From NCBI RefSeq assembly GCF_000196615.1, contig NC_014306.1:2976001-3040000 (forward strand): DNA of 64,000 nucleotides, written 5' to 3'. This document shows positions 3,793 through 11,657 of the stretch, piece after piece; position 1 is the stretch's first letter; every line of letters starts with the position of its first letter. This DNA comes from Erwinia billingiae Eb661. Lineage in GTDB: Bacteria; Pseudomonadota; Gammaproteobacteria; Enterobacterales; Enterobacteriaceae. A model generated the notes under the pieces. That model had not been told where the DNA came from. It saw only the letters and a program-made list of their open reading frames with translations, and searched no databases. The position numbers and the translations under genes are program-made.

Positions 3793-5187
3793 ATGCAAAT
3801 TAATAAATATAAGTTTGACCAGGTTATATTCTTATTTTTTCTCGCATTATGTTTAGCGACCCTGGGCCTGCATTGCCGTAGTTATCAGGCACTTTCCCTT
3901 TTCTGGCCGTGTAATGCCCTGTTATTAGGGGTGCTGATCCGTTTTCCTCGCTTCGATACCCTTTCCAGCCTGCCGGCGATGTATCTCGGCATGGTTGCCG
4001 CCGATATGCTTTACGGCACCCCGGTTATTGTTTCGCTGGGAATGGATGCCGCGAATATCGCCTTTGTGACGGTGGGCAAAGCGGTGCTGCTGTCACCCTA
4101 TCTGACGCGTCCCTATCCGCGACGACTGCAGGCCTTGATCCGCGTCTTCCCGGCTTCCATTATCGCCGCCGCGGTGTGTGCCGCCATTGGCTCCTTCGCC
4201 GGCCAGCGTTATTTTCATGATGATCTGATGCAAGGATGGATCTCGTGGTTCTGCGAACAGGTGTCCACGTCGATCCTGATCCTGCCATTGGTGATCACCT
4301 TCCCGCGCCGTGATGAGCTGGACCAGCTGTTCAATGAACTCCGCGAAAGCAATCTGATGCCGCTGGTGATGCTGCTGGTTTCCACCGTGTGCGGCATTTA
4401 TGTTGGCGGTGGCGGCAGCCTGATCTTCCCGCTGCCTGCGCTGATGTGGTGTGCGGTCAGCTATCCGATCTTCTTTACCTGCCTGCTCACGCTGTTAACC
4501 GGTATCACTGAAATCATCCTGGTGGCCAGTAAGGTGCTGACTATCCAGGGCTCCGATGATTTCTTCCGCATCGACAGCCTGGCTTCGGCCCGACTGGGCG
4601 TTGCCGCGATGACCATCAGTCCGTTGATTGTGGCATTGAGCACCACCGCCAATAAAAAGCTGGTGGCGCGCATTACCAAGCGGGCGGATTATGATTTCCT
4701 CACCGGCGCACTGACCCGCAGCGGCCTCTCCTCGCAGCTGAACGCGCTGATTGCCCGCAAGAATAAAACCAGCGGCTTCTACGGCGCGGTTTTCGTGGTG
4801 GATATCGATCGTTTCAAAAACATCAATGATACCTACGGGCACGCGGCCGGCGATCAGGTGCTGGCAAAGACGGTGGAGTGCATCCGCCAGTCGCTGCAAC
4901 AGACGGCAATCATCAGCAGGATGGGTGGCGAGGAGTTTTTGGTGTTGATAGAGGGGATTTCTCAGCCAAGAGCGTATCTGCTGGCCGATCGGCTGCGCCA
5001 AAGCATCGAGCGCAATACCATTATGCTCAACGAGCAGAACCTTAGCGTGACGGTGAGTATTGGCATCAGTACCTTGCACGTGATTGATGCGGGCAGTCTG
5101 GACGAGTCGATTAAAAATGCCGATGAGCAGCTGTACATTGCGAAAAGCAGCGGCAGAAATCGCGTCAGCCCGGAGTTCGTGCTGTAG
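3793..5187 (+). CDS. MASE1-type membrane diguanylate cyclase (GGEEF)
   Basis: A 464-residue inner-membrane enzyme predicted to make cyclic di-GMP from two GTP. Residues about 10-290 form a multi-span MASE1-like sensory domain (for example FLFFLALCLATLGL and LLVSTVCGIYVGGGG). Residues about 295-460 form a GGDEF domain with active-site GGEEF at 378-382, preceded by VVDIDRFKNINDTYGH, and with VSIGIS near the end. No RxxD inhibitory site is visible five residues before GGEEF, so product feedback through that site is not expected. It lies in the flagellar neighbourhood, where c-di-GMP control of motility is plausible but inferred. Confidence 0.9.
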   Translation: MQINKYKFDQVIFLFFLALCLATLGLHCRSYQALSLFWPCNALLLGVLIRFPRFDTLSSLPAMYLGMVAADMLYGTPVIVSLGMDAANIAFVTVGKAVLLSPYLTRPYPRRLQALIRVFPASIIAAAVCAAIGSFAGQRYFHDDLMQGWISWFCEQVSTSILILPLVITFPRRDELDQLFNELRESNLMPLVMLLVSTVCGIYVGGGGSLIFPLPALMWCAVSYPIFFTCLLTLLTGITEIILVASKVLTIQGSDDFFRIDSLASARLGVAAMTISPLIVALSTTANKKLVARITKRADYDFLTGALTRSGLSSQLNALIARKNKTSGFYGAVFVVDIDRFKNINDTYGHAAGDQVLAKTVECIRQSLQQTAIISRMGGEEFLVLIEGISQPRAYLLADRLRQSIERNTIMLNEQNLSVTVSIGISTLHVIDAGSLDESIKNADEQLYIAKSSGRNRVSPEFVL

Positions 5188-5517: not shown

Positions 5518-5614
5518 GCGTTTATCCTTCTGGGTTAAAAAATCACTCATCAATTCTGACCGCTGCGTTTCGCAGAAGTTCACAACAATTTTTTAACCAA
5601 CAAAGTAAATCACT

Positions 5615-5641
5615 GAAAAAGGCCGCCATTACTGGCGGCCG
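5615..5641 (-). terminator. Terminator of the lysis/tailspike operon
   Basis: On the minus strand GGCCGCC-AGTAAT-GGCGGCC is followed by TTTTTC, placed just after the stop of the tailspike-like gene. Confidence 0.85.
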
Positions 5642-5656
5642 CTGCTGTTTTACAGG

Positions 5657-7405
5657 TCAAAAATAGGCGATTTTGCGGTCCGTACCGTTGATGTTGACGG
5701 TGATATAGCCCGCTGCCGTGGTGGTGGTTGGCGCGGTGGCCGCCACGGTAGCCACCGTAAGTACCCCCTTCTCGTTCGCCCCAATTCCCGCCAGCCCGTT
5801 ATGCAGGCTCATCCTGGCGTTCGGTGAGGTGGTGCCGATGGTGGTGCTGTCGGTCACTTCGCTGAGATCCGGGGTAAACAGGTTACATTCGCCCGACTCA
5901 AAACGACTCGGCCCGGTCGATTTCAGGTTGAACATCATGTCGCCGCTGGCGGCTTTCAGCTTGACCCAGATTTCGGCGTAGGTCACACCGATGCGGTTCA
6001 GCTTCACGTCCAGCACCGCCGGGGAACCTTTATGCTGAATGTCAGCATAGATGGCGGTTGAACAACGCGAGATATTCAGCCAGGTCATACAGGAAGAGAG
6101 CGCCGTGACCGGGTTACCCGCCGTGCCCGTCAGGACATCGTTAGTGGCTTTACTGATCATCTCCACCACCCACTGCTGGTTATCCTTCGGCATATTGATT
6201 TTGCCCAACTTGTACCATTTGTCGCTGGTCGAGGTATTGGTCACCTTGAAGCCGGTGTACCAGCCGGCCTTCATCGACCCGGTCATGGTTGAGCCAAAAC
6301 TTTCATCGCGACGCCAGCCGTATTCATAGCCTGAAAGCCAGCGTGGAGACGTGGTATCCAGACTGACTTTACCGCCGGACTGCAGATTCAGCTGGCGGAT
6401 CTGCACGCGTCCATTGTTCATATTGAACGGATTGGCACAGTCTTCCAGATTCAGAGTATCAATCGTCCAGCCGCCATCACTCAGGTCGCCCGGGAAGCGC
6501 GTATGCTCAATCCACACGTTGCGCAAAATACCTTGCGTCACGCGCGGCATATACAGCGTCGCATCACCATAGCCGGTTTGGAAATTCGCGTTGGTTAACT
6601 CAATCGCCGTTGAGTGATCCCAGACACCGGCCGCGGTGTCTGACCAGCCAATATCAAACACCCGGCCATAGGTGGTTAAGGTATAGATCTGGTCAAACTT
6701 CGAATCCAGGGTATCCAACAGCTTGATGACCGTGCCGCCATTGTTTGACGCCCGGAAGCGATTAATCACCACTGACTCCCCCGCAACGATGGTATTTTCA
6801 AAAAACGGCTGCTGGTTGGTACACATCGCCGAGGTAATCGCCGCTTTATTGGTGGTGATATCCGCCGTGGCCTGGCCATTCCACGCGATGCCCTTGATGG
6901 CCACGCGCCGTGCCTGCACTTTGAATACCGGTGCGGTGGACTTGTTGGACACGATGGTGGTGCGTGGCATGGCACCATGGGGATTGTCATCGCCGTAGAT
7001 ATAAAAGAAGGCGGCGTCGGTCCCGGTATAATCGATGGGATTAATCAGGAACTTTCCGGCCGGGAAGCGCACACCGAGATCCTTGGCGTTGGTATTAAAG
7101 GTCTGCGCCCAGCTCATCATCAGTTTGAAGGCGCCACTGTCATCGGTCACGCCGTCACCCTTCCCGCCAAAGTGATAGATGTTGAGTTCATCCGGATCGT
7201 GAATGACGCGTTTCCAGTAAAAAGTGCTGCCGGCTGCCAGCGTGCCTGAATCATCCGCCGGCGGCGTTGCGCTGAGAAAACCAACAAAATCACCGCCGCC
7301 ACGGAATGTGGAATCCTTATCGTAATAACGGCGCAGAATAGCCAAATCGCCAGCTTTGGCAGGTGCAGTTGTTCTCAATTCAGCAAATGAGTTAACTTCA
7401 ATCAT
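5657..7405 (-). CDS. Tailspike / AmsF-like beta-helix protein
   Basis: A 582-residue protein with no signal peptide. Residues 1-70 (SFAELRTTAPAKAGDLAIL) resemble the N-terminal module seen before phage tailspikes and in the amylovoran protein AmsF. Residues 81-89 (GKGDGVTDD) are the usual entry to a right-handed parallel beta-helix of the pectate-lyase fold. The C-terminal third is Ser/Thr/Gly-rich beta structure. Such proteins often bind or cut polysaccharide, but no catalytic residues can be assigned by eye. It is the last gene of a lysis cassette, 122 bases after Rz1, with its own terminator. No other tail gene is present, which is odd for a phage. Confidence 0.75.
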   Translation of the reverse strand: MIEVNSFAELRTTAPAKAGDLAILRRYYDKDSTFRGGGDFVGFLSATPPADDSGTLAAGSTFYWKRVIHDPDELNIYHFGGKGDGVTDDSGAFKLMMSWAQTFNTNAKDLGVRFPAGKFLINPIDYTGTDAAFFYIYGDDNPHGAMPRTTIVSNKSTAPVFKVQARRVAIKGIAWNGQATADITTNKAAITSAMCTNQQPFFENTIVAGESVVINRFRASNNGGTVIKLLDTLDSKFDQIYTLTTYGRVFDIGWSDTAAGVWDHSTAIELTNANFQTGYGDATLYMPRVTQGILRNVWIEHTRFPGDLSDGGWTIDTLNLEDCANPFNMNNGRVQIRQLNLQSGGKVSLDTTSPRWLSGYEYGWRRDESFGSTMTGSMKAGWYTGFKVTNTSTSDKWYKLGKINMPKDNQQWVVEMISKATNDVLTGTAGNPVTALSSCMTWLNISRCSTAIYADIQHKGSPAVLDVKLNRIGVTYAEIWVKLKAASGDMMFNLKSTGPSRFESGECNLFTPDLSEVTDSTTIGTTSPNARMSLHNGLAGIGANEKGVLTVATVAATAPTTTTAAGYITVNINGTDRKIAYF

Positions 7406-7527
7406 AATAACCTCCGGGGCAATAAGCCGTAGCGAATCGCCTAAATGAAAAATTCATTAAAGGAAAAATAAAAGATAAGTCATAACTCCTGAGGGATAAA
7501 ATCACCCTTTCCCTGTGGGTGAATGGG

Positions 7528-7764
7528 TTAATCTTCCTTTTTAGTTGCGCAAACTTTATTCCAGGTATCGTTGTGGACGTTAATTTCCTTCACCGTCCTG
7601 ATATCAATGACCTGCCAGTCCTTACCGTAAGTACGGATGGGTGAAAATAACGTACAGGAGGAGTCCTGAATAAGCTGGGGACTATTGTGGGTTGTTCCAT
7701 GTTGAGTCGCGCAGCTTGTTACGAGCAGCGTCATCAGTAAGCACGTTATTACTGTCCTGAACAT
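7528..7764 (-). CDS. Rz1-like outer-membrane spanin
   Basis: A 78-residue lipoprotein in a different frame from Rz, starting inside it and overlapping its last 83 bases, the classic Rz/Rz1 arrangement. The start at 7764 follows AAGGAGG by 6 bases. Signal peptide MFRTVITCLLMTLLVTSCA has lipobox VTSC with Cys18. In phages the o-spanin pairs with Rz across the periplasm and fuses the inner and outer membranes at the end of lysis. Confidence 0.85.
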   Translation of the reverse strand: MFRTVITCLLMTLLVTSCATQHGTTHNSPQLIQDSSCTLFSPIRTYGKDWQVIDIRTVKEINVHNDTWNKVCATKKED

Positions 7765-7978
7765 TTTTAACCTCCTTAATATCCATAGCCTGTTTATTGG
7801 CGACGATAGCCACGCGATCGGCTTCCTGCTTTGCCGCCGTGACGTCAGAGGTAGCTTTTTGCTGCACCTTGCCGATTTTTTTGCCGCCAAACCAGCTGGC
7901 GATTAACGCGGCAAACACCACCCCGATTGCAGCCAGCCCATGCCAGCTGCCGGTAAAAAGCGCAAGAAGTGTGCTCAT
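7682..7978 (-). CDS. Rz-like inner-membrane spanin
   Basis: A 98-residue protein with one N-terminal membrane anchor (about residues 15-32, GLAAIGVVFAALIASWFGG) followed by a charged helical periplasmic stretch (KVQQKATSDVTAAKQEADR), the topology of an i-spanin. The ATG overlaps the holin stop by 4 bases, indicating translational coupling. Its partner Rz1 is encoded in another frame within its 3' end. Short for an Rz (lambda Rz is about 153 residues) but complete in layout. Confidence 0.85.
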   Translation of the reverse strand: MSTLLALFTGSWHGLAAIGVVFAALIASWFGGKKIGKVQQKATSDVTAAKQEADRVAIVANKQAMDIKEVKNVQDSNNVLTDDAARNKLRDSTWNNPQ

Positions 7979-8319
7979 GCTTTACCCTCCGTTGCCTGGC
8001 GCTGTATGGCTAAGGTTTTCTGCCGAACAAACTGGGCGATAACCGCCATCGCGACCATAAAAGAGGCGACAAATCCGAGATAATGCTGCGGCATAAAGGT
8101 CTTCACATCTTCCGGTAATGCGGTCCAGGCATTCATCGCGGAATCCGGGAATGACTGGGCCCAGGCGCCGATGGCGGAACCGGCTGACGCCAGCCAGACC
8201 GACCAGGTCTTAAACAGCAGTTTGGTATGGGAGACCAACTCGATTTTGCCGTGCTTGCTTACCCACCAGACCAGGAAAATCACCGCCAGCACAATCAGTA
8301 AAAACAGAATGAATTTCAT
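7975..8319 (-). CDS. Phage holin
   Basis: A 114-residue membrane protein with three likely spans: about residues 2-20 (FILFLLIVLAVIFLVWWV), 38-55 (TWSVWLASAGSAIGAW) and 81-100 (LGFVASFMVAMAVIAQFV), plus a basic tail (RQKTLAIQRQ). This matches phage holins that open the inner membrane for the endolysin. It overlaps the endolysin stop by 4 bases and the Rz start by 4 bases, giving a tightly coupled cassette. Confidence 0.82.
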   Translation of the reverse strand: MKFILFLLIVLAVIFLVWWVSKHGKIELVSHTKLLFKTWSVWLASAGSAIGAWAQSFPDSAMNAWTALPEDVKTFMPQHYLGFVASFMVAMAVIAQFVRQKTLAIQRQATEGKA

Positions 8320-8783
8320 ATAACCCCCTGATAAGCATCATACGTACCGCTGCGCATCACCTGCGCCAGTCGTTTTGCCCGCTGCGGCGTTTGCCGTGCC
8401 CACAAGCTGCTGAGCATGCCTTCCGCCGCGCCATCGAAATGACCGTTTGAGATCATCACCAGCGTATTTTTGAAGGCTGCCAGACCATCAACACCCAGCT
8501 GATAGGCCATGCTGTACAGCACATCGGCACGCGCTGGATTACATTGCTTCAATGCAGCGACAATAGAAGGACGCGTATTCATCAGCTGAATTTTGTCATC
8601 CAGCATTTTTTGCATCCAAATATCGCCCACCGTTTTTGGTACGGTAAATTGATAATTAACCAGCGAAGCGTCTTTGGGACCGATAACGATCCCACAGGCA
8701 ACGGTTGGATAACCTTCAGTGTCAATATAAGGCCGATCCTTATATCCTTCTTCATAGGTTAATATCTGTATTATCTTACTCAT
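8316..8783 (-). CDS. T4-type endolysin (GH24 muramidase)
   Basis: A 155-residue lysozyme that cuts the glycan strand of peptidoglycan. The catalytic triad spacing of T4 lysozyme is kept: Glu12, Asp21 and Thr27 (E-8-D-5-T) in EGYKDRPYIDTEGYPT. There is no signal peptide or signal-anchor, so it should need the adjacent holin to reach the wall. The start at 8783 is preferred over 8798 because AGGAGGTG lies just upstream. It is the first gene after the 152-base Q-to-lysis gap where a Q-dependent late promoter would be expected. Confidence 0.88.
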   Translation of the reverse strand: MSKIIQILTYEEGYKDRPYIDTEGYPTVACGIVIGPKDASLVNYQFTVPKTVGDIWMQKMLDDKIQLMNTRPSIVAALKQCNPARADVLYSMAYQLGVDGLAAFKNTLVMISNGHFDGAAEGMLSSLWARQTPQRAKRLAQVMRSGTYDAYQGVI

Positions 8784-8935
8784 TCCCCACCTCCTCATGC
8801 GAAAACAGGCACCAGCCTGAATTCATGTAACGTGAATTCCCCGGTATTGAAAGTGCTTCAAGGGTGAAGATTAAATTGCCTTTTTAACATCATGGATCGG
8901 TAATTGCGTACGCAACCACTTTTTCTGAAAATAAA

Positions 8936-9301
8936 TTAATTTTCACATTCAAGCGTTATATCCAGCGCGGATAACACCCCTTCGACAAAACCTTCTGCGG
9001 TCTGGAGTTGCTTGCGAATGGTGCCGTCAGCGCAACGGCGTCGGCGGGCAATGGAGCGAAGTGAAACTCTGAACAGATAGTGAGCAACCAGCAGCGCATG
9101 TTCATCAGGATGATTTTTTTTCAGACGGCTGATGCAGCTGTCGAGCAGAATGCCGTCGTTGTCACTGCAGACAGGACGGGGAACCGGTGAGGAGGTAATC
9201 AGACCACGGAAACCGGCCGCAACGGAAGAGTAACCGATACCATTGCGATCGGTGGCCGCCCAGCCGCCCCAGCTTTCCAGTAATAGCTTGATGTCTCGCA
9301 T
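8936..9301 (-). CDS. Phage antitermination protein Q
   Basis: A 121-residue protein resembling lambdoid Q antiterminators of the smaller type (start MRDIKLLLESWGGWAA, then YSSVAAGFRGLI, and CADGTIRKQLQTAEGFVEGVL). Such proteins load on RNA polymerase paused at the late promoter and let it read through terminators into the lysis genes. Here the lysis cassette lies directly downstream on the same strand. AAGGAG sits 5 bases before the ATG. It faces a divergent repressor gene, with normal early phage genes absent between them. Confidence 0.85.
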   Translation of the reverse strand: MRDIKLLLESWGGWAATDRNGIGYSSVAAGFRGLITSSPVPRPVCSDNDGILLDSCISRLKKNHPDEHALLVAHYLFRVSLRSIARRRRCADGTIRKQLQTAEGFVEGVLSALDITLECEN

Positions 9302-9540
9302 AATGACTCCTTAAATCAGCATTCAGGCAGGTAACGAGCCGATCTATTCGGCACTTTTCGTAAACACCTGCTAAGTTCAAGTCGGCAGATCTGACCCAAA
9401 TATCGGGATAAATCTGCGTCATACGAAGACGTCGGATGCGTTGCCAGCGATTAGGCTGGGCGGCCAGATTGTGAAAGAGCAGTAAATCCGATAGCATTCC
9501 GTGGCGCTGAATATCCTCCTTGCTATTGCTTATGATAAAT

Positions 9541-9558
9541 TAATAGCAATAGCTATTA
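9541..9558. promoter_or_regulatory. Palindromic operator candidate O1
   Basis: TAATAGC-AATA-GCTATTA is a perfect 7-4-7 palindrome in the space between the divergent repressor and the Q-side transcription unit. A further inverted pair, GCTATTGC (9522-9529) with GCAATAGC (9546-9553), overlaps it. Likely binding sites for the neighbouring repressor. Confidence 0.6.
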
Positions 9559-9591
9559 ACTTCGTCAATAGCAAAGCGTGTTTGACGAAAA

Positions 9592-9605
9592 ATAGCCTTC
9601 GCTAT
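9592..9605. promoter_or_regulatory. Palindromic operator candidate O2
   Basis: ATAGC-CTTC-GCTAT repeats the same half-site and 4-base spacing as O1, ending 12 bases before the repressor start codon. Binding here would be expected to autoregulate the repressor gene. Confidence 0.6.
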
Positions 9606-9617
9606 AAATTCTGGTAT

Positions 9618-10220
9618 ATGAAACCGAATACACTCGCTTACCGACTGAACATGGCTATGTCCATGATGGGAATTACCCAGGGTGCTTTAGCTAAAGCCTC
9701 CGGCGTATCGCAGCCTACAATCTGGCGTCTGACCAAAGGGGAAGCAGAAGGCTCCCGCAAACTGGTCGACATTGCCCGCGCCCTCGACGTGAACGTACAG
9801 TGGCTGGCTAACGGCGAAGGAGAGATGCGCGGCGCCTCCGCCATTAGCGCCATTGACAAAGTAAAGAGTGGTACTACTATTTCCGTTTGGGGGCCAGATG
9901 GAAAAACAGGAGAAGTGGTCTCAGCCCCTAATGGCGCAAAGGCGAAGAAGAGCTGGCGAGCCTATATTCTTGACCGCAACAGCGGTTGCTCAGAAGCCAC
10001 CGCCGGCAGCATCGTCATCATCGACACTGAAGTACCAGCAGAATCTGGAGATTTGGTGATTGCAAAGGTCAATTCCCGCCTCTCCGTATACCGTTATCTT
10101 GAGGGCCCCTCTAATGGTTTTTTGACCGTAGATGATCCCAGATTGCCCGCTGTAGAGCTCTCTGACGAGTCAGAACTGACGGGTGTTGCAATCTTCCTGA
10201 TCCGTGATTTAAGACGGTAA
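9618..10220 (+). CDS. CI-like repressor with an altered S24 peptidase site
   Basis: A 200-residue protein: an N-terminal XRE helix-turn-helix (about residues 5-62, ITQGALAKASGVSQPTIWRLTKG) and a C-terminal LexA/CI-type domain (about 112-198). The start at 9618 opens the HTH directly; the longer frame from 9501 runs through the operator region. Ser122 lies where the catalytic serine is expected, but the position of the catalytic lysine (usually V-K-R) reads VYR, with Tyr158. The linker has no Ala-Gly dipeptide. Self-cleavage is therefore doubtful. It faces away from Q and the lysis genes and probably represses them. Confidence 0.85.
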   Translation: MKPNTLAYRLNMAMSMMGITQGALAKASGVSQPTIWRLTKGEAEGSRKLVDIARALDVNVQWLANGEGEMRGASAISAIDKVKSGTTISVWGPDGKTGEVVSAPNGAKAKKSWRAYILDRNSGCSEATAGSIVIIDTEVPAESGDLVIAKVNSRLSVYRYLEGPSNGFLTVDDPRLPAVELSDESELTGVAIFLIRDLRR

Positions 10221-10614
10221 GTACTGACATCCTGCCCTTGCAGAATGGTTTCCTTGTATCGCCCTCCGGATACTCTGTGCAGTACAGATATCATCAGTTA
10301 CTCCTCGCAAATTCCCCCCTCTGTGACAGTTAACCTGCACAGGGGTTTTGACGCATTGATTCAACTGAATAGATTAGTAAAGCTTTCTATAACATCGCCA
10401 GAATAAAGCGTAAAAAAAGCGATAAAAAAACATTTTTGCGTTTAAATTCAATGACGTAAATCTATAAGTACAGTTATTTTCATCATAACCATTGATATTA
10501 ATAATAACTATGGCTATCGTTTTTAGGAGGGGATATATTTATGCTGTTAACTGATTTAATGGTCATATTTTCCCTGAATGAATACCAGCCAGCCGTAAAA
10601 ATCAGGAGGTTATG
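10221..10614. other. AT-rich spacer after the repressor
   Basis: No supported gene. It contains an A-rich tract with repeated AAAAAAAGCG / AAAAAAACA motifs at about 10405-10440. It ends at the ribosome-binding site of the small basic ORF that follows. Confidence 0.4.
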
Positions 10615-10791
10615 ATGACCACGATCATCTGGAAAGCGTGCCAGCAACATGGCACCAGCAAAAGTCGTTACAAAGCCCGCCGTGCAGAAGCCCTGGCGCG
10701 GCGACAGCGCGATCGTCGGTTGGCCAGTAAGATTGCTGAAGCGCTGAGTGGGTGCAGCCAACGCGTGGTGAAATCGGTCAGGGATAAGTGA
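10615..10791 (+). CDS. Small very basic protein (58 aa)
   Basis: An unrecognised 58-residue ORF beginning MTTIIWKACQQHGTSK and rich in Arg/Lys (KARRAEALARRQRDRR). Translation is supported by a textbook AGGAGG at 10604-10609, 5 bases before the ATG at 10615; a second ATG three bases earlier is too close to that site. The charge suggests nucleic-acid binding, which is inference. It lies in the accessory block between the phage-type genes and fliE, followed by a tandem repeat. Confidence 0.55.
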   Translation: MTTIIWKACQQHGTSKSRYKARRAEALARRQRDRRLASKIAEALSGCSQRVVKSVRDK

Positions 10792-11025: not shown

Positions 11026-11187
11026 TTAGTGAGTAAGAGTCTGAGCGCTGGCCTGCATTCCGGCTTTGCAGAAAATACAGTTAGCACCGTGGGGATTTTT
11101 TGGCGTGATGTTATGGGGCGATAAACGGAACTGACATCCATGACATGACGGGCATTTGAATCTGATAATAGGAATAGTAACCTTCAT
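11026..11187 (-). CDS. YmcF/YnfQ-like cold-shock zinc-ribbon protein
   Basis: A 53-residue protein with two Cys pairs, CPSC at 12-15 and CIFC at 37-40, separated by a SPHNITPKNPHGA segment. The pattern closely resembles E. coli YmcF/YnfQ, small proteins found next to cold-shock genes; that link is from memory. The pairs suggest a zinc ribbon. The start at 11187 (MKVTIPIIRFKCP) matches the family length; no strong Shine-Dalgarno is visible, as often in cold-shock transcripts with long leaders. No csp gene is adjacent here. Confidence 0.6.
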   Translation of the reverse strand: MKVTIPIIRFKCPSCHGCQFRLSPHNITPKNPHGANCIFCKAGMQASAQTLTH

Positions 11188-11297
11188 AAACTGTGAACAA
11201 GAAGAAATTACAATATCACTCCCCGACGCTTCTGTCCGAATTATCTGGGGGGTATTAGTCTTAAAAGTAACATTTATGCAACAAGACCTGAGCACAT

Positions 11298-11321
11298 GCC
11301 CGCCGCCATGCGGGCTTTTTT
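11298..11321 (+). terminator. Terminator on the plus strand before fliE end
   Basis: GCCCGC-CGCCAT-GCGGGC followed by six T. The tail is only on the plus strand, yet no plus-strand gene is recognised immediately upstream. Confidence 0.7.
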
Positions 11322-11345
11322 GTGCCGTCACGTCTCTTACACCCG

Positions 11346-11657
11346 CTAAACCTGCATATTCATGATGTCAGTGTACGCACTCACCAGCTTGTTACGCACC
11401 TGAATCCCCATCTGCATCGACACCGACGACTTCTGCATATCCACCATCACATCGTTCAGGTTGATGCCTGGCTTACCCAGCTCAAAGTCCTGCGCTTGCG
11501 TGCGGGCTTCATTCTGCGTGTCGCTGATCTTGTTCAGTGCGGCTTTCAGCTCACCGGCAAAATCCGCATGGCTGGAGGCATCGGTACTCTTGCCGCTGGC
11601 CTGAATCGCTGCGGTTTGCAGCTGCTGCATAACACTTTCGATACCCTGAATTGACAT
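11346..11657 (-). CDS. fliE: FliE, hook-basal body junction protein
   Basis: A 103-residue protein matching enterobacterial FliE, which links the MS ring to the rod and forms part of the export gate exit. Hallmarks: start [13 protein letters not shown] and C-terminal [20 protein letters not shown], the conserved rod-type helix. It is transcribed divergently from fliF, the standard arrangement. Confidence 0.96.

Follow-up and report, generated by a model that had tools for sequence, protein, structure and literature searches.

A Compact Lambdoid Lysis and Depolymerase Block beside fliE in Erwinia billingiae, Probably Kept by Its Hosts for Lytic Release of the Enzyme

Gene Content and Layout of the fliE-Side Block

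A stretch of 64,000 nucleotides of the Erwinia billingiae Eb661 chromosome (NC_014306.1, positions 2,976,001 to 3,040,000; hereafter the window, with its first letter as position 1) carries beside fliE a block of approximately 5 kb that combines phage-type regulatory and lysis genes with a gene for a beta-helix protein of 582 amino acids (aa). On the minus strand, transcription would run from the antiterminator gene Q through the genes for endolysin, holin, Rz, and Rz1 to the beta-helix gene, which lies downstream of Rz1 on the strand of the lysis genes and is followed by a terminator hairpin. The repressor and N genes are divergent on the plus strand, with N 0.4 kb beyond the repressor. The genes of the block and its terminator are as follows:

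5616..5640, minus strand: intrinsic terminator of the lysis-depolymerase operon (hairpin and U run; z-score of −2.47 for the fold of 5590-5660)
5657..7405, minus strand: beta-helix protein of the AmsF/WceF-like exopolysaccharide (EPS) depolymerase type, 582 aa (phrog_4250 'EPS depolymerase', E 2.9e-168)
7528..7761, minus strand: Rz1, outer-membrane spanin lipoprotein (phrog_1275, E 1.1e-15; lipobox pattern in 17 of 17)
7682..7978, minus strand: Rz, inner-membrane spanin (phrog_1026, E 1.2e-11)
7975..8319, minus strand: holin (phrog_1356, E 3.6e-14)
8316..8783, minus strand: endolysin, 155 aa, with E-D-T triad (PF00959 Phage_lysozyme, E 5.5e-5)
8936..9301, minus strand: antiterminator Q (PF06530, E 5.8e-44)
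9618..10220, plus strand: CI-type repressor, 200 aa, with an S24-like C-terminus (Pfam and PHROG profiles, alignment)
10094..10294, minus strand: antisense small gene, 66 aa, over the 3′ end of the repressor gene (pN/pS, homologues)
10612..10791, plus strand: N antiterminator, 59 aa (phrog_271, E 9.2e-7; PDB 1nyb, E 0.0016)

An initial annotation, made from the letters of the window, had listed a divergent repressor, Q, endolysin, holin, Rz, Rz1, and a beta-helix gene in that order, and profile matches agree with these genes and their order, with the repressor on the plus strand. Its 4-base overlaps between the endolysin and holin genes and between the holin and Rz genes are present, as is the terminator that it assigned to the beta-helix gene. 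The intact catalytic triad that it reported for the endolysin (E12-D21-T27, the spacing of T4 lysozyme) is kept in all 18 orthologues. As it had also stated, genes for an integrase, replication, packaging, heads, or tail tubes were not found among the open reading frames (ORFs) scanned with Pfam and PHROGs from the diguanylate cyclase (DGC) gene to fliE. Two details had to be revised: Rz1, described as embedded in Rz, overlaps it and extends past its end, and the likeliest start of the repressor is 9618 (200 aa; Met at that position in 14 of 15 aligned sequences), not 9501. The inventory of listed genes thus stands, and it had missed N, a nut site, operator-like palindromes, the sequence TGCGTACGCA, and the antisense 66-aa gene.

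From the gene content of the locus and its relatives, the holin, endolysin, and spanins sit outside a phage. In phage lambda the order is N-cI-Q-lysis, and the block, judged by its genes, is the same order with nothing between cI and Q, minus cro and the replication and structural genes; that is, it reads as a compact lambdoid relic.

Conservation at the fliE Site

To survey the site, fliF was located in 37 genomes of the genus and the fliE neighbourhood was fetched, which gave 31 readable genomes (the window included). In the six others, either no close fliF match was present (G007, G008, G023, G027, and G030, with a distant match only in G027) or the contig stretch was too short (G031). Presence of the block was scored by tblastn (E 1e-3). 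The genomes surveyed include two near-duplicate pairs (G028/G029 and G003/G004), and the contig of G013 stops short of fliE, just beyond the block. In addition, a family-wide search with the repressor over 295 genomes, together with a contig scan (16 loci), led to Izhakiella australiensis, Mixta, and remoter relatives.

The repressor, Q, endolysin, and depolymerase genes were found together at the site in 17 of the 31 readable genomes, and four others (G002, G015, G018, and G032) have reduced loci with Q and the depolymerase only. I. australiensis has the whole block next to the same DGC and o89 genes, on a contig that ends before fliE, which brings the carriers to 18. The repressor frame (200 codons) and the endolysin frame (155) are kept in 18 of 18, and all of these but one also have the holin and both spanins (in the genus 16 of 17, G025 being without them); the length of the depolymerase is 582-584 in all 22 loci, including the four reduced ones. 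The initial annotation had called intact frames atypical of a decaying prophage and had asked for the same block in related genomes; it is there, with the repressor, Q, endolysin, and depolymerase frames intact in the 17 genus genomes. With near certainty, the block is a real, old, and maintained element. In five genomes without the block (G036, G010, G016, G033, and G022), comparison at the DNA level gave no match in three and, in the other two, a match to the neighbouring o89 gene only.

Several further observations were made on these loci. The reduced loci (L066, L067, L068, and L069) come from relatives with smaller genomes and have TGCGTACGCA between Q and the depolymerase gene. G034 contains a repressor-like fragment (the first 74 residues, 64% identity) approximately 12 kb from fliE. 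Holins with long C-terminal tails rich in Pro, Thr, and Ala were seen in L039 (G001, 509 aa), L036 (G014, 255 aa), and L056 (G024, 168 aa).

Selection and Phylogeny

Ratios of nonsynonymous to synonymous substitution (dN/dS) were calculated by the Nei-Gojobori method for pairs among the 18 carriers with dS of 0.05-2, other pairs being dropped. The medians were 0.086 for the repressor (128 pairs), the lowest of the block, 0.128 for Q (57), 0.131 for the depolymerase (131), 0.146 for the endolysin (86), 0.216 for the holin (86), and 0.345 for N (31); those for Rz (0.232, 100 pairs) and Rz1 (0.272, 111 pairs) are distorted by the overlap of the two genes. The flanking genes gave 0.089 for fliE (91 pairs), 0.100 for o89 (78), and 0.158 for the DGC gene (145). 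By these rough values, the genes of the block are under purifying selection that resembles that on their neighbours, and the relaxation that the initial annotation had named as a possible refutation is not seen (0.09-0.35 in the block versus 0.09-0.16 in the flanks). Recent decay of the block was accordingly rejected on its intact frames and low dN/dS.

Trees over 15 genomes, one of four module proteins and one of two flank proteins, match broadly. Both contain G011/G021, G025/(G024/(G014/G001)), and a group of G003, G004, G012, G019, and G020, within which the branching differs. Among G000, G017, G026, and G028, the module tree pairs G000 with G026 (0.98) and the flank tree pairs G000 with G017 (0.71).

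The Regulatory Circuit

Several short elements accompany the regulatory genes:

8905..8914: palindrome TGCGTACGCA just downstream of Q (one site in the window versus 0.01 expected)
9444..9482 (approximately), minus strand: nut site with a boxA-like TGCTCTTTC and the boxB hairpin CCAGC-CTAATC-GCTGG (fold with 5-bp stem and hexaloop)
9543..9556: perfect operator-like palindrome ATAGCN4GCTAT on the right-operator (OR) side, between the repressor and Q
9592..9605: second perfect copy of ATAGCN4GCTAT, also on the OR side between the repressor and Q
10504..10517: operator-like palindrome with one mismatch on the left-operator (OL) side, upstream of N

All carriers but one have a recognizable N (17 of 18), which in four was detected by motif only. 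Its arginine-rich stretch matches PDB 1nyb, the N of phage phi21; the N/nut type is phi21-like. The stretch from the repressor to Q was compared in 16 carriers (all but G003 and G029), and 15 of these have a boxA-like (C/T)GCTCTTT and a boxB CCAGC-CTAA(T/C)C-GCTGG there, with G-U variants of boxB in two genomes. An arginine-rich N and matching boxA and boxB elements on the early transcript are therefore both present, and lambdoid N/nut antitermination is predicted. The sole carrier without N, G014, likewise has no nut site, and both are also missing in the four reduced loci, in none of which was a nut site found. The N proteins of the E. persicina group additionally have a Cys-rich tail.

Directly downstream of Q, TGCGTACGCA is present in 19 of the 22 Q-bearing loci, including all four reduced loci (it is absent in G011, G014, and G206), and in the 32 loci scanned it occurs nowhere except beside Q; it is a candidate for a Q-binding or late-promoter element. 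Operator-like sites with at most one mismatch are found downstream of the repressor, at least one in each of the 18 carriers. The combined pattern of N, nut, Q, and operator-like sites is suggestive of an antitermination circuit in use.

The assignment of the repressor to the S24 fold rests on weak profile matches, alignment, and a modest model (predicted local distance difference test, pLDDT, 72.3; predicted template modelling score, pTM, 0.41), and its match to PF00717 (E 0.0019) is below the cut-off. All 18 repressors have Ser122 and Tyr158, the latter aligning with the lysine of the repressor encoded at the icd site of the same genome (see below), and in relatives from other genera, with identities as low as 36%, this position is occupied by Tyr or Phe. 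The Ser-Lys dyad and cleavage site of a RecA-cleavable S24 protein are not found in the fliE-site repressor, which by alignment belongs to a non-self-cleaving family. Direct SOS cleavage is unlikely for a repressor without the S24 lysine and was rejected as the trigger, since Ser occurs without Lys across the aligned family; for the same reason, the loss of Lys is inherited and not a sign of domestication.

The antisense small gene starts behind a GAGG-like site and spans the last 42 codons of the repressor gene. Of the 18 carriers, 17 keep it open, and in three an upstream start makes it 74-76 aa long. In its 24 free codons, where its frame is the only stop-free one of the six, pN/pS was 0.218 (15 genomes), and none of 500 column permutations gave a value as low. 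Homologues occupy the same place in Mixta, next to several more distant repressors, and in two phages of Yersinia, in which only the repressor is annotated. That the 66-aa protein acts as an antirepressor is a guess.

The Beta-Helix Depolymerase

The 582-aa protein matches WceF (PDB 6tgf) with E 3.8e-94 in an alignment that starts at WceF residue 169. The P22-like head domain of WceF is given as residues 34-146 in the part of the structural report available (PMC7949094), so this domain is absent from the 582-aa protein. An AlphaFold model of the monomer (pLDDT 80.5, pTM 0.63) likewise has 6tgf as its top Foldseek match in the PDB (E 8.5e-39), with uncertain domain placement since the superposition gave a TM-score of 0.58 and a root-mean-square deviation of 14.8. 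Thus, the structure comparison that the initial annotation had called for points to the EPS-cleaving tailspike-like enzyme WceF of Pantoea stewartii as the nearest PDB fold. By sequence family and model, the protein is assigned to the tailspike-like beta-helices of the AmsF/WceF family, with a predicted EPS-cleaving activity. Many of its close homologues are catalogued as AmsF (amylovoran biosynthesis protein).

No signal peptide was apparent in the 582-aa protein (hydropathy maximum of 0.52 in the first 60 residues; no twin-arginine translocation (Tat) motif by eye). The same genome encodes a 737-aa WceF-like paralogue whose N-terminus, MKRRELITGFSSILAALS, is Tat-like by eye. Loss of a virion anchor was considered as proof of domestication and rejected, as relatives from lytic phages (47-48% identity, 599 and 604 aa) begin at the same residue.

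Similar Modules at Other Sites and Prophages at fliE

At the icd site of the same genome (L031 15433 to L032 320; the icd side was recognized by Pfam Iso_dh), a second module has the order repressor, endolysin, holin, a 95-aa protein, and depolymerase, with two further holin-family genes (phrog_198 and phrog_217) on the other side of the repressor. It is also found in G026, G028, G010, and G016, and its dN/dS was 0.07 for the repressor, 0.12 for the endolysin, 0.135 for the holin, and 0.06 for the depolymerase (7, 6, 5, and 7 genomes, respectively). Its repressor looks SOS-cleavable, as it has the motif GDSM...VKRL, a candidate Ala-Gly site, and a PF00717 match of E 9.6e-21. Beyond this module lies a DinI-family gene (PF06183), and a LexA-type box is seen in relatives (L113 13383).

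At the proBA site, the genomes G014, G056, G181, and G274 (loci L114 and L151 to L153) combine another S24 repressor with an endolysin and a depolymerase, the last split in G181 (L152). In G014, a holin and spanins are shown and the Pfam families of the neighbours are kinase plus PUA and aldehyde dehydrogenase; the module of G056 (Duffyella, L153) has an N peptide protein (PF25694, E 6.8e-33). Among the three proBA modules scanned for it, tRNA-Thr lies next to those of G014 and G056 and was not found at that of G274; in G014 it adjoins an ORF that looks by eye like an integrase gene. Both icd and tRNA-Thr are classic phage attachment (att) sites.

Other combinations also occur. In Duffyella (G056), the repressor and depolymerase at fliE are related to those of the block, whereas the holin, R, and Rz genes beside them form an unrelated set; a few other small genes are also present. 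In Mixta (L105 5074-8876 and L132 7264-8949), at another site, the repressor, endolysin, and holin are followed by a different protein of 561-563 aa (the one tested, of 563 aa, gave no Pfam or PHROG match), and in L105 the cargo position also holds a 596-aa protein.

Three relatives (G017, G024, and G003) have prophages with integrase and large terminase genes between the block and fliE, bounded by direct repeats of 15-23 bp of the fliE end. The corresponding core is present in one copy in the window, at the edge of the element. The initial annotation had named as a refutation a full lambdoid prophage with the same gene order at this place; these elements lie outside the block and contain other genes. 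That the block is part of them was rejected because they have their own integrase and large terminase and their repeats exclude the block. As a control, L112 and L115, with homologous lysis genes in what appear by eye from their ORFs to be prophages, gave no depolymerase match.

In viral contigs, the depolymerase family was found at 39 loci, and 11 of the 23 compared show arrangements already met in other modules. L174 (a 44-kb contig, of which 21.8 kb were examined) has Q, other genes, endolysin, Rz, and a depolymerase, followed 3.5 kb on by a small terminase and a tape measure gene, an arrangement like that of a phage late region, with a depolymerase of the soluble type. The notion that hosts invented the placement of a depolymerase beside lysis genes was rejected on this locus, which has both, with the small terminase 3.5 kb on. 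In L168, L170, and L173, lysis genes and a depolymerase are followed by a tail sheath (PHROG, three of three), with tape measure and baseplate genes also in L168; no head gene was noticed in the stretch examined, and these clusters appear tailocin-like.

Neighbouring Features

The flanks of the block, on either side, are as follows:

3793-5187: diguanylate cyclase (GGDEF) gene, flank, adjoining the module in carriers
11346-11657: fliE, flank (FliE by Pfam)
11349..11367: 3′ end of fliE, att core for the prophages of relatives and edge of the element (direct repeats in three relatives, a single copy here)

A link of the neighbouring GGDEF diguanylate cyclase, which adjoins the module in carriers, to matrix control is possible. 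A small Cys-rich ORF (11026-11331, minus strand) is matched in many carriers.

Interpretation and Alternatives

We consider it probable that the block is a host-maintained lytic release module for a soluble depolymerase, similar to a type 10 secretion system (T10SS). The domesticated release module with beta-helix cargo proposed initially is borne out as to maintenance by conservation and dN/dS; its firing and the release of the enzyme by lysis are what we infer. The block would derive from an ancient lambdoid prophage, probably one that used fliE as its attachment site, which was reduced to its switch (repressor, N, nut site, and Q) and late output (endolysin, holin, Rz/Rz1, and soluble depolymerase) and then kept by selection. 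Once the repressor loses its grip, early promoters would fire, N would let transcription pass into Q, and Q would drive the late operon; a minority of cells would fill with depolymerase and burst, and the freed enzyme would cut the exopolysaccharide matrix. What was observed of this scheme is conservation in place, intact frames, purifying selection, the joint absence of N and nut, and recurrence at other sites. Lytic release appears the most economical reading because selection keeps the switch, the lysis genes, and the enzyme, no other exit is visible, and unrelated lysis genes recur alongside the enzyme.

A number of results weigh against it. The block is absent in 10 of the 31 readable genomes, within the stretch fetched. 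Four fliE loci dropped the repressor and lysis genes and kept Q and the depolymerase, and G025 has lost the holin and Rz; lysis is therefore dispensable in places, as several lineages lost the lysis genes and kept the depolymerase. At icd, the endolysin is decayed in G017 and absent in Izhakiella, and the module is less stripped than the fliE block, given its two extra holin-family genes. The dN/dS values are rough since dS is often >1, and the co-absence of N and nut is modest support, as it may go back to no more than two deletions, the first in G014 and the second in the reduced clade. Operator-like sites (at most one mismatch) upstream of the repressor occur in only 10 of 18 carriers, so the upstream consensus does not fit all of them. 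As for an inducing signal, a relaxed LexA pattern gave one weak match, inside Q only. Finally, the order of Q, lysis genes, and depolymerase is present in the phage-like L174 and thus seems inherited rather than newly built. It is on account of lysis-gene loss in some lineages, among other limits, that our confidence in the release module is fair and not high.

The L174 order, the ten genomes without the block, and the partial loss of lysis genes are equally what would be expected of an ordinary defective prophage remnant, kept by chance and intact because its loss is recent. This explanation is very improbable and largely refuted, as the block is shared by Erwinia and Izhakiella, its divergence resembles that of the flanks and its clades largely match theirs, four of its genes have dN/dS of approximately 0.1 at dS often >1, and its regulatory sites are conserved. 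Operator-like sites, which remain in all carriers downstream and in only 10 of 18 upstream, together with the lowest dN/dS of the block in the repressor (0.086) and a repressor family that is not self-cleaving, would suit a role in phage defence, either as immunity to superinfection or through an incoming relative that derepresses the block and causes early lysis. We regard such a role as unlikely: selection on the depolymerase, which with Q is the most widely retained gene, would be unexplained, four genomes dropped the repressor and kept Q and the depolymerase, and prophages coexist beside the block in three genomes.

Retention of the depolymerase where lysis genes were lost, both at fliE and at icd, could also mean that this enzyme alone is selected under a phage switch and that the lysis genes are tolerated passengers. 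Nevertheless, the endolysin, holin, and both spanins are complete and under purifying selection in 17 of 18 carriers (G025 excepted), Duffyella pairs its depolymerase with unrelated lysis genes, and no export signal was seen in the enzyme, all of which render this option improbable. Least expected, along with the chance remnant, is that the block is what remains of a tailocin or satellite, with a spike that would be mounted on particles produced elsewhere. In related elements, sheath, tape measure, and baseplate genes do come after a holin, an endolysin, and a spike of the same family, and the stretch examined showed no obvious head gene, yet the spike at fliE has no P22-like head domain such as that of WceF and no tail gene was found at the fliE locus with Pfam and PHROGs.

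Beyond the release module at fliE itself, we tentatively offer a wider proposal, plausible at best, that Erwiniaceae have repeatedly reduced lambdoid prophages (at fliE, icd, and proBA) to a switch, lysis genes, and a depolymerase. Such units would disperse the matrix through lysis, the death of few cells setting free an enzyme that loosens the biofilm. At fliE, the full repressor-N-Q circuit would be kept and the non-cleavable repressor countered in another way, perhaps by the antisense-encoded protein. If the release module is real, it would extend lysis-based secretion beyond toxins and chitinases to an enzyme that cuts the matrix, and hosts would have kept the decision circuit of a phage (repressor, N, nut, and Q) without the surrounding virus. 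It would also provide a candidate route by which Erwinia-type bacteria break down their own slime. In addition, the analysis flags the widespread database label AmsF on close homologues, and the non-cleavable repressor together with a conserved antisense small gene makes the question of induction directly testable.

Comparison with Known Systems

Tailocin and pyocin lysis clusters, and the tailocin-like L168, L170, and L173, share with the fliE block phage-type control and the release of a phage-derived product by lysis, whereas the fliE block has no tail structure. No published description of the fliE module was found in a literature search of titles and abstract openings. The prophage call reported for E. 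persicina was, in the sections of that paper at hand, mainly a tail module (PMC7317114). The DLP12 lysis module of Escherichia coli K-12 is similar in that lysis genes of a defective prophage have a reported effect on the host (vesicles), but the available portion of its description mentions no depolymerase cargo (PMC7918800), and at the fliE block the other phage genes are gone.

WceF/AmsF of P. stewartii (PDB 6tgf) is a tailspike-like beta-helix homologous over nearly all of the 582 aa. According to the available part of its description, WceF carries a Tat signal as well as a P22-like head domain and is encoded in an EPS cluster (PMC7949094); in contrast, the fliE-block protein has neither of the two and is encoded in a row of lysis genes.

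The closest parallels are the type 10 secretion cassettes YenLC of Yersinia entomophaga and SmaLC of Serratia marcescens, which, in the portions of the reports available, are likewise chromosomal holin-endolysin-Rz/Rz1 sets outside a phage, with cargo that has no secretion signal and is under shared control (PMC10847048, PMC10101115); at fliE, the first two features are apparent from the genes, and shared control is predicted from their order. They differ in that the host regulators RoeA and ChiR are named for YenLC and SmaLC (PMC10847048, PMC10101115), whereas the fliE block keeps a lambdoid repressor-N-nut-Q circuit and has a cargo of the polysaccharide-depolymerase type within the same gene row.

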